Shown here: piece after piece, positions 21,489 to 24,246 of the stretch | Position numbering within the stretch: position 1 is the stretch's first letter | Layout of the letters: the number at the start of each line of letters is the position of its first letter | Source of the DNA: Planctomycetaceae bacterium | Lineage (GTDB): Bacteria > Planctomycetota > Planctomycetia > Planctomycetales > Planctomycetaceae | Length of the DNA: 32,451 nucleotides | Direction: 5' to 3' | NCBI GenBank assembly: GCA_020850695.1 | Contig: JADZEF010000375.1 | Location: 1-32,451 of the forward strand | Program-made: the position numbers and the translations under genes | The notes under the pieces: model-generated | Databases searched by the model: none | The model's input: the letters and a program-made list of their open reading frames with translations, nothing else | What the model was told of the DNA's origin: nothing

Positions 21489-22661
21489 TTGAACGCCATC
21501 GCCCTCCTGCAGGACCTCGTCTCCATCCCCAGCGTCAACCCCATGGGACGCGACCTTTCCGGCCCCGAATACTTCGAGGGACGCCTCACCGAGTACATCG
21601 CGAAGTTCTTTCAGAAACTTGGCGTCGATCATCAGGTCATCGAGGTCGTTCCCGGCCGGGCCAACGTCATCGCCCGCATCGACCGCCCCGGAGCCACCCG
21701 CACCATCCTCCTCGACGCGCACCAGGACACCGTCCCCATCGACGGCATGACCATCGACCCCTTCAAGCCCGAGATCCGCGACGGCCGGCTCTACGGCCGA
21801 GGGTCGTGCGACGTGAAGGGGGGCCTCGCCTCGATGATGGCCGCCTTCGCCCGCCTCGCCACCGAGCGTCCCGCCGGGGCCTCGAACGTCGTCATCTCGT
21901 GCACCTGCGATGAGGAGTCGACCTCTCTCGGCATCAACGACCTGACCCGCCTTTGGACCGATCCCAAGCGGACGGGAACGCTCCTCAGCAAGAAGCCCGA
22001 CCTCTCGATCGTCGCCGAGCCCACCGACCTCGACATCGTCGTCGCCCATCGCGGGGCCACCCGCTGGAAAGTCCGCACCGTCGGCCGCGCCTGCCACAGC
22101 TCGCGGCCGACCGACGGCATCAACGCCGTCTATCGCATGGCAAAGATCGTCACCGTTCTCGAGCAATACGCCGAGCTGCTTCCGAGTCTCGTCAAGCCGC
22201 ACCGGTTGTGCGGGTCGGCCACGCTCAGCGTCGGGCGCATCGAAGGAGGAATCAGCGTAAACACGGTTCCCGACTGGTGCGAGATCGAGATCGATCGCCG
22301 TGTCATCCCCGGCGAAGACGGCATGCAGGCGATGCACGACGTCGAGACGTTCCTCAAGTCGCACGTCGACATCCCCTTCGAGTTCCTGCCGCCGTGGATC
22401 GTCGGCGCGACTCTGCCGGACGACGACAACGGCCCGCTCTCCGACGAGCTGATGACGCACATCGAGAAGGTGGCGGGCCCGCACAAGAAAATGGGCGTCG
22501 CCTACGGCACGCACGCCTCGCGCATTGCGGACAAGGGTGTTCCGTCGGTCGTGTTCGGCCCTGGCTCGATCCTCATGGCCCACACGAAGGACGAATGGAT
22601 TCCGGTCGATGAAGTCGAGAAAGCCGCGGAGATCTATTTCCGCTTTTGCGCGGGGGCGTGA
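21489..22661 (+). CDS. M20 family metallopeptidase (ArgE/DapE type)
   Basis: Zinc-dependent amidohydrolase of 390 residues. The di-zinc ligands are present: DAHQDTVP (His78, Asp80), GRGSCDVKGG (Asp108, bridging), CDEES (Glu142/Glu143, base and ligand), AEPTD, and a C-terminal FGPGSILMAHTKDEW histidine. The dimerisation domain lies at about residues 180-290 (THRGATRWKVRTVGRACHSS). The family includes acetylornithine deacetylase, succinyl-diaminopimelate desuccinylase and carboxypeptidases; which substrate applies cannot be told. The start is TTG 21489, giving MNAIALLQDLVSIPSVNP, the normal family N-terminus; no in-frame ATG lies nearby and no Shine-Dalgarno is evident. Confidence 0.9.
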   Translation: MNAIALLQDLVSIPSVNPMGRDLSGPEYFEGRLTEYIAKFFQKLGVDHQVIEVVPGRANVIARIDRPGATRTILLDAHQDTVPIDGMTIDPFKPEIRDGRLYGRGSCDVKGGLASMMAAFARLATERPAGASNVVISCTCDEESTSLGINDLTRLWTDPKRTGTLLSKKPDLSIVAEPTDLDIVVAHRGATRWKVRTVGRACHSSRPTDGINAVYRMAKIVTVLEQYAELLPSLVKPHRLCGSATLSVGRIEGGISVNTVPDWCEIEIDRRVIPGEDGMQAMHDVETFLKSHVDIPFEFLPPWIVGATLPDDDNGPLSDELMTHIEKVAGPHKKMGVAYGTHASRIADKGVPSVVFGPGSILMAHTKDEWIPVDEVEKAAEIYFRFCAGA

Positions 22662-22845
22662 GGAGGATGGGGGGATAGAGCGATGGGGGAATGGGGAGAA
22701 CAGAACCCGTGGCGTAACAGTTTGGGACTGCGTGCGCTCTTTCAGGACCAGCCAATAAAGGGATGACGGGATTGAGAGAGCATCGCCGCTCAGGGAGATC
22801 GATCTCCATCAGTGGACAACTCGCTGCTGTGGGCTCGGCTTCTTC

Positions 22846-23048
22846 GGGCTGAAGGCCCGAAACTCAATAGCCTGGGCCAAGCGAAGCGCCGGCCCAGGTC
22901 ACCGACCCCGTAATTCCTTCAAGGCCTGTAGGGCCGTCACTCCTTCGAAGACCGAGTGACGGCCCTACAGGCCTCAGGCCGCTTTATTGATCCCACCCAG
23001 CCCGGCGCTTCGCTTGGGCTGGGCTGATGAGTAACGGGCCTTCAGCCC
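22846..23048. repeat. Three nested inverted stem-loop pairs
   Basis: Outer pair: 14-base inverted copies at 22846-22859 and 23035-23048 (GGGCTGAAGGCCCG). Middle pair: 31-base arms at 22869-22899 and 22995-23025, each an 8-bp stem around the identical 12-base loop AAGCGAAGCGCC. Inner pair: perfect 20-base inverted copies at 22922-22941 and 22955-22974, each containing GTAG or CTAC. The middle stems are CCTGGGCC/GGCCCAGG and, read inverted, CCCAGCCC/GGGCTGGG, with three compensated pair changes. This fills the 436-base gap before the sarcosine-oxidase-like gene; the remainder, 22662-22845, shows no gene. Confidence 0.85.
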
Positions 23049-23097
23049 TCAATCCCTCCTTCCCGCGCTCCGACAACAGCTCTCGAGTTCTCCCGTC

Positions 23098-24246
23098 ATG
23101 GCTCACACGTTCGACGTCATTGTGCTCGGGGTCGGAGGCTTCGGCAGCGGAGCCTTCGATCATCTCGCCCGCCGCGGGCTGAAGGTGCTGGGGCTCGACC
23201 GATTCCCCCCTGGGCACGATCGTGGCAGCTCGCACGGCGAAACACGGATCATTCGCAAAGCCTACTTCGAGCATCCCGACTACGTCCCGCTCCTCCTGCG
23301 GGCGTACGATCTCTGGCATGAACTCGAACGCGACATCGGCCAGACGCTGTTTCACCGGGCGGGGCTTCTCATCAGCGGCCCTCCCCACGGCGAAGCGGTC
23401 GCCGGCGCGCGACTCGCGCGGGATCGTTACAACGTCCCGCTTGAAGAAATCCCGCGGGCCGACCTCCCCGCACGCTTCCCCGGCTTTCGCATTCCCGACG
23501 AATTCGATGCGGTCTTTGAGCCGGACGGGGGTTATCTCGAAGTCGAAAACTGCGTCCTGGCTCATGCCCGGCGCGGCGAGCGGGCAGGGGGCGTCATCCG
23601 GTCCAATGAGACGGTCCGTGCGTGGTCGTCCAACGGCCGCACCGTGACCGTCACGACCGAGCGCGACACCTACTCCGCCGCCAGCCTCGTGATCACGGCC
23701 GGCGCCTGGGCGGGAACCCTGCTGGCCGATCTGCGAATCCCGTTGCAGGTCGTCCGCAAGCCCCTCTTCTGGTGCCCCGTCCGCAGCGGCGACTATGCCG
23801 TCCAATCGGGATGCCCGACGTTCTATTTCGATCTGCCGCGAGGCTCGTTTTACGGCTTCCCGTCCATCGATGGCTCGACGCTGAAGGTGGCCGAGCACTC
23901 GGGGGGCGCACCGGTCGATGATCCGCTCCTCGTCAATCGCGAGATTCAACCGGACGACTTCCCCCGCGTCGGCGAGTTCCTTCGCGAGCACATGCCGCAG
24001 ATCGATCCCCAACCCGCTCGGCACTCGGTCTGCCTCTACACCGTCACGCCCGACCATCACTTCGCAGTCGACGTCCATCCGCAATACCGCAACGTCGCGG
24101 TCGGAGCGGGCTTCTCGGGTCACGGGTTCAAATTCACGAGCGTCCTCGGCGAAGCCCTCGCAGATCTTGCGACGACGGGCCGGTCAGACCTGCCGATCGA
24201 GTTCCTGTCGCTCGACCGAAAGGCGCTTCATCCGACGACCATGTAG
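23098..24246 (+). CDS. Sarcosine oxidase / N-methyltryptophan oxidase family flavoprotein
   Basis: 382 residues, the length of monomeric sarcosine oxidase. The N-terminus FDVIVLGVGGFGSGAFDHLARRG has the FAD dinucleotide-binding loop. GSSHGETRIIRKAYFEHPDYVPLL is the diagnostic segment after the first helix. Cys312 in HSVCLYTVTPDHHF is the cysteine that carries covalent FAD in this family, and the end has VAVGAGFSGHGFKFTSVLGEALA. The enzyme oxidises N-methyl amino acids (sarcosine, N-methyltryptophan) or a related secondary amine with O2, in the cytoplasm. The substrate is not determined by sequence. ATG 23098 is the first family residue. The gene stands alone between two repeat-rich gaps. Confidence 0.92.
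   Translation: MAHTFDVIVLGVGGFGSGAFDHLARRGLKVLGLDRFPPGHDRGSSHGETRIIRKAYFEHPDYVPLLLRAYDLWHELERDIGQTLFHRAGLLISGPPHGEAVAGARLARDRYNVPLEEIPRADLPARFPGFRIPDEFDAVFEPDGGYLEVENCVLAHARRGERAGGVIRSNETVRAWSSNGRTVTVTTERDTYSAASLVITAGAWAGTLLADLRIPLQVVRKPLFWCPVRSGDYAVQSGCPTFYFDLPRGSFYGFPSIDGSTLKVAEHSGGAPVDDPLLVNREIQPDDFPRVGEFLREHMPQIDPQPARHSVCLYTVTPDHHFAVDVHPQYRNVAVGAGFSGHGFKFTSVLGEALADLATTGRSDLPIEFLSLDRKALHPTTM

Follow-up and report, generated by a model that had tools for sequence, protein, structure and literature searches.

A gene-less, REPIN-like element in a planctomycete genome and its probable links to a Y1 transposase and to the Acido-Lenti-1 family

Here we analysed a 32,451-nucleotide stretch of a Planctomycetaceae genome (contig JADZEF010000375.1; hereafter, the window) and found three nested inverted hairpin pairs that most probably (we put this at about 86%) constitute a gene-less miniature transposable element of the REPIN kind, the arms of which would be the DNA substrate of a Y1/HUH transposase (TnpA-Y1, with subclass 1.2 motifs) that is encoded between the same arms on another contig, C15. 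We read the element in this way because the arms recur, exist in gene-bearing and gene-less versions, covary in their stems, have a conserved and oriented foot, co-occur with the transposase and are variably present in another genus. Its different foot and the subclass 1.2 motifs of the transposase keep us from filing it as a classical GTAG REPIN.

The element in the window and its copies

The hairpins occupy positions 22843–23051, with 203 bp between the outer hairpins (Table 1). The outer inverted pair (22846–22899 and 22995–23048) is 54 nt in length and 81% complementary, and inside it lies a perfect 21-nt pair. The element folds at −142.5 kcal/mol, far more stably than shuffled sequences do by chance (−82.1, s.d. 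4.7; z = −12.9). The first-pass annotation had described nested inverted hairpins of which the middle pair has identical loops and three compensated stem differences, and this is exactly what the sequence contains: the left middle hairpin (CCTGGGCC-AAGCGAAGCGCC-GGCCCAGG) and the right one, read on the minus strand from 23023 to 22996 (CCCAGCCC-AAGCGAAGCGCC-GGGCTGGG), have the same loop, which is partly self-pairing (GCG-AAG-CGC), and all three stem pairs that differ are compensated (T-A/C-G, G-C/A-T and G-C/C-G). The symmetric stacking is likewise present; the supposed three hairpin types reduce to two, as the outer and inner hairpins are of one type (GGSCTGNAGGSCCGNNACTC). Each of the two inverted arms follows the plan small hairpin–NNAG–big hairpin–spacer–small hairpin. 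The 11-nt loop between the inner small hairpins is the site at which the C15 copy holds a transposase gene. Matches to MIR1151 and htlv_FSE at the inner palindrome were far under the cut-off and were taken as chance.

Table 1 Features of the element, its neighbours and its matches to RF01687 (window coordinates)
Feature	Position	Strand	Basis
Upstream neighbour, outside the element: M20 family peptidase gene	21489..22661	+	
Left outer small hairpin, TTCGGGC-TGAAG-GCCCGAA	22843..22861	+	sequence, arm-model match
RF01687 sub-threshold match, left arm	22845..22881	-	23.4 bits
Left foot, ATAG, adjoining the big hairpin on its 5' side; putative guide tetranucleotide (NNAG)	22867..22870	+	sequence; enrichment of AG feet beside transposase genes
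Left big (middle) hairpin, CCTGGGCC / loop AAGCGAAGCGCC / GGCCCAGG	22871..22898	+	sequence, covariation
Inner small hairpin of the left arm, AGGCCTGTAGGGCCGTCACTC, of the outer type	22922..22942	+	
Inner small hairpin of the right arm, exact reverse complement of its left counterpart	22954..22974	-	
Right big (middle) hairpin, CCCAGCCC / loop AAGCGAAGCGCC / GGGCTGGG	22996..23023	-	sequence, arm-model match
RF01687 sub-threshold match	23001..23049	+	30.1 bits, E 7e-5
Right foot TCAG, 5' of the big hairpin	23024..23027	-	sequence
Right outer small hairpin, GGGCTGAAGGCCC	23036..23048	-	
Downstream neighbour, outside the element: FAD-dependent oxidoreductase (DAO) gene	23098..24246	+	

The loop word had been suggested as a tag for related structures. 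It has 22 exact matches in the 8.6-Mb genome, compared with 12 for the reversed word; because some of these matches are stemless (L003, L005 and L007), the word alone is not diagnostic, and the hairpin plus its context is. A covariance model built from 16 arms recovered 24 strong arms of the family at E values of about 1e-6 or better—a modest copy number—with the genome's best match in the window itself (R1, 22843–22899; 86.9 bits). Seven miniature pairs are readable (in the window and on C161, C253, C180, C352, C16 and, decayed, C396), and further copies comprise the gene-bearing one on C15, a number of solo arms and, on C81, a ‘double-foot’ copy; spacers between inverted arms vary from copy to copy. 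Little is left of the arm pair in the C81 copy (L240, G000:C81:21785-21868) except one big hairpin between two feet, much as in the published ‘double foot’ REPs of TnpA-Y1 subclass 2.4. One GC-rich repeat (CCCTCTCCCCCGCCTCGGGGGAGAGGG) adjoins arms of distinct families at two loci, L244 (G000:C415) and L032 (G000:C313).

Across the 16 arm copies, 98.3% of big-hairpin cells are paired and 35 cells are double-changed (14.0 in shuffles). This covariation, together with the position of the arms beside a single-strand DNA transposase, supports the earlier proposal of selection on single-stranded structure. The case for three separate compensatory events within this copy does not survive: the big hairpin has two stem versions, a CCTGGGSC type and a CCCAGCCC-like type, and 5 of the 7 scorable elements, including the transposase-bearing copy, have one arm of each. 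The three differences between the arms in the window were inherited with the arm types and are not three events in this copy; the compensated differences are still evidence that the stems stay paired. It had also been asked whether inner and outer hairpins occur alone, and they almost never do: their common consensus has 27 matches in the genome (2 for the control), about 3 of which are outside arms.

Transposase genes and the probable mobility of the arms

On C15, window-type arms enclose an intact open reading frame of 151 amino acids (C15:17924-18376; L001:1577-2032), the product of which has a PF01797 Y1_Tnp domain (81 bits) and the stop codon of which overlaps the inner hairpin. Two other arm families, B (CCGGGGGC-AAC-GCCCCCGG) and C (CCCAGGGT...ACCCTGGG), follow the same plan and enclose related transposase genes on C339, C340 and C370 (loci L042 and L039/L040). 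A single genome contains three arm families that have different sequences, one architecture and a transposase each. The four transposases align at D-H-[VI]-H, W-Q and Y-x3-Q-x2-H-H; the related genes are 38–57% identical to the C15 gene, which is the only one found for the arm family of the window. A profile of the related proteins matches the solved IS608/ISDra2-type transposases (IS608 TnpA, 2a6m; E 1.8e-11). In NCBIfam, transpos_IS200 scores 65.2 bits (cut-off 55) and REP_Tyr_transpos 31.6 bits (cut-off 80); these scores and the Y motif led us to reject a class 2 RAYT, and class 3 TnpA-Y1, considered on taxonomy, was rejected on motifs. Placed by its motifs against Table 1 of PMC6006769, the C15 protein is a predicted TnpA-Y1 with the marks of subclass 1.2.

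The family B gene at L042 (G000:C339, about 1450–1910) is apparently frameshifted near its N terminus and may be inactive or an assembly error. Other Y1 transposase genes (L047, L049 and L050, on G000:C241, C323 and C175) have GTAG-preceded hairpins nearby (for example, GTAGGGCAGGCTCCCGCCTGCC), which suggests that this genome harbours classical GTAG REPs alongside its NNAG families.

Scanning 84,980 species genomes yielded 80 homologous transposase loci from many phyla, including Verrucomicrobiota and Planctomycetota. Upstream and downstream flanks are mirror images above the 95% control at 55 of 78 loci and above the 99% control at 32 of 78. We defined a foot signature as AG directly 5' of a hairpin of at least 7 bp that starts with CC, and applied it to 77 loci (154 flanks); it was set after inspection of the flank listing of the same loci, and its counts are to be read with that caution. 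Hairpins with an AG foot in the correct orientation occur in 98 of the 154 flanks and in the wrong orientation in 24, compared with 27 of 840 background strand-windows, and eight other dinucleotide feet occur 1–14 times each in transposase flanks; about one third of flanks lack the signature under this strict test. The feet are overall NNAG, with GTAG once in 102, and the big hairpin lies a median of 59 nt from the gene. At the one acidobacterial locus examined (L169), arms are nearby and the tidy symmetrical arrangement is absent. Two loci have other layouts: several RF01687 arms in both orientations arrayed beside the transposase gene (L272, G169:C5), and, unlike the arrangement in the window, a pair of RF01687 arms that meet head to head as a near-perfect double hairpin on each side of the gene (L271, G019:C266).

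Presence and absence could be followed in genus g44. One miniature element of G090 is missing at the orthologous site in G051, G016, G027, G288 and G230; a second is missing in G051, and a lone small hairpin stands at its site in G016 and G027. A gene-bearing element is common to G090, G016 and G027 at one locus, where conservation stops at the outer hairpins, and is missing in G051; the G051 stretch that replaces it, checked as a possible gene-less derivative, has no recognisable arms. The pattern is consistent with miniature copies that move and a gene that stays in place, and may reflect gain or loss alike. One gene-bearing element (L340, G027:C19) has an extra tandem copy of one arm and the adjacent gene end. 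No target-site duplication of the kind that marks a MITE of a DDE transposon was obvious by eye in the copies read. At the g44 empty sites, the junctions and the intergenic sequence around them are too diverged to show a duplication, the exact ends or the target, and it is by inference that we arrive at transposition, the cleavage sites and the element ends. For the window element, a search of 40 relatives for an empty site found the upstream gene in several, an alignable intergenic region in none, and no congener.

Relation to the Acido-Lenti-1 RNA family

Both window arms match Rfam family RF01687 (Acido-Lenti-1) below its gathering cut-off of 37 bits (Table 1), and a copy of another arm family in the same genome exceeds it (41.5 bits). 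The genome has 41 RF01687 matches, including at least ten minus-then-plus pairs 150–175 nt apart. Among 248 genomes of the class, 109 have both RF01687 and the transposase (called present at E of at most 1e-30), 5 the transposase only, 38 RF01687 only and 96 neither (odds ratio 55; Fisher P = 3e-30, which overstates independence because the genomes are related). RF01687 was found in 25 of 25 genomes reached through named transposase loci, including an acidobacterium and a lentisphaerian, and was over the cut-off in 21 of these, compared with 0 of 14 control genomes. When 60 transposase loci were scanned, it was the sole Rfam family to appear at the thresholds used, and it lies close to the transposase gene in L106, L096, L109, L124, L112, L128 and L141.

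Rfam annotates RF01687 as ‘Gene; sRNA’ and its discoverers rated it a probable RNA (PMC2864571); a literature search of main texts returned passing mentions only. One arm of such transposase-linked elements is apparently what Rfam lists as the Acido-Lenti-1 ‘sRNA’. We lean towards the broader view that Acido-Lenti-1 is primarily a DNA arm, and not an RNA, of a widespread single-strand transposition system in several bacterial phyla, in which arms of three hairpins and an NNAG guide would be the substrate of subclass 1.2 TnpA-Y1 proteins, as a further REP-like system beside IS200/IS605 and the GTAG REPtrons. An orphan RNA family would then be reinterpreted as mobile DNA, and Rfam-based annotation marks such arms as sRNA genes.

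Proposed mechanism, alternatives and known systems

We postulate that each arm folds when the region is single-stranded, for example as lagging-strand template. The transposase would bind the big hairpin and use the adjacent NNAG foot as a guide; its tyrosine would nick the DNA, and the unit would be excised and reinserted as single-stranded DNA. The transposase gene would stay put while gene-less copies spread. Cleavage, the guide role and the single-strand intermediate were established by work on IS608 and TnpA-REP (PMC8266576), and are extended here by analogy; the C15 gene product presumably acts on the window copy. The choice of hairpin and foot by the enzyme can now be tested.

Strong RNA folding, stem covariation and the filing of RF01687 as a probable sRNA would also suit arms that are mainly RNA—a transcribed structured small RNA or an mRNA 3' element selected for folding, which the transposase only spread. 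We consider this unlikely: the elements are mirror-symmetric, so that the same arms are read from either strand, they keep a constant orientation to the transposase gene, an arm adjoins transposase genes across phyla and miniature copies come and go at orthologous sites. Less probable still is that the hairpins serve the host, for instance as a nucleoid or gyrase site or as a terminator of transcription in both directions, with stems kept by host selection. Known REPs can serve such roles (PMC6006769) and the strong hairpins of the element do sit in a gap between two genes, but no T-run follows them in the sequence read, the same arms surround transposase genes in many phyla, and one genome has three sequence-distinct families that share an architecture and have their own transposases.

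The symmetric nesting had prompted the suggestion that hairpin elements inserted successively into one another. This we regard as hardly credible, given that outer, middle and inner hairpins recur in the same order as a unit in other copies and around the transposase genes of other phyla, and that the outer and inner hairpins are one type and almost never alone. Compatible with a mobile element is a narrower proposal, that the compensated changes arose by template switching within hairpins (quasi-palindrome correction) and not by selection. In its favour, inner hairpin pairs are identical within an element (20/20 in three copies) and differ between elements; the big-hairpin differences are common across elements as two arm types, and the conserved AG foot and loop are left unexplained, which makes template switching a tentative, minority explanation.

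The closest known systems are the REPINs and RAYTs (Bertels and Rainey 2011, PMC3116915) and the REPtrons (PMC8266576). Like these, the window family comprises both singlets and inverted hairpin doublets with compensatory changes, and its presumed agent of spread is a Y1 transposase whose low-copy, locus-stable gene lies between hairpins of the same type. The window family has two inverted hairpin arms with a variable spacer and, in its C15 copy, a cognate Y1 gene flanked by the same hairpins. It differs in that each arm has three hairpins and not one; in place of GTAG (or GTGG) before the hairpin it has NNAG, rarely GTAG (ATAG and TCAG in the window); and the transposase has Y-x3-Q-x2-HH where class 2 has Y-x3-NP. 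IS200/IS605 elements (subclass 1.1) share the HUH Y1 fold and hairpin ends, whereas copies of the window family are mostly gene-less with inverted arms and diverge from one another, and several near-identical gene-bearing copies were not found. Class 3 TnpA-Y1 (PMC6006769) is known from Planctomycetes and Acidobacteria, with atypical flanking structures and a high copy number in some genomes, but has NHVH, Y-x4-Q and a CnGA foot in contrast to the DHVH and Y-x3-Q-x2-HH of the C15 protein and its NNAG foot. RF01687 shares with one arm the order small hairpin, foot, big hairpin, and was described as an sRNA of Acidobacteria and Lentisphaerae, whereas here it forms inverted pairs around, or derived from, transposase genes; REPIN-like biology is seen across Planctomycetota, Verrucomicrobiota, Lentisphaerota and other phyla. 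Subclass 1.2, marked by DH[VI]H, WQ, Y-x3-Q-x2-HH and about 148 amino acids (Table 1 of PMC6006769), agrees with the C15 protein in motifs, length and low copy number. In its published description (Quentin et al. 2018, PMC6006769), that subclass comes mostly from Cyanobacteria and Bacteroidetes, lacks REPs and generally has no terminal structures; the elaborate arms in most flanks here, in Planctomycetota, Verrucomicrobiota and others, probably provide a substrate for a transposase subclass described as having none.
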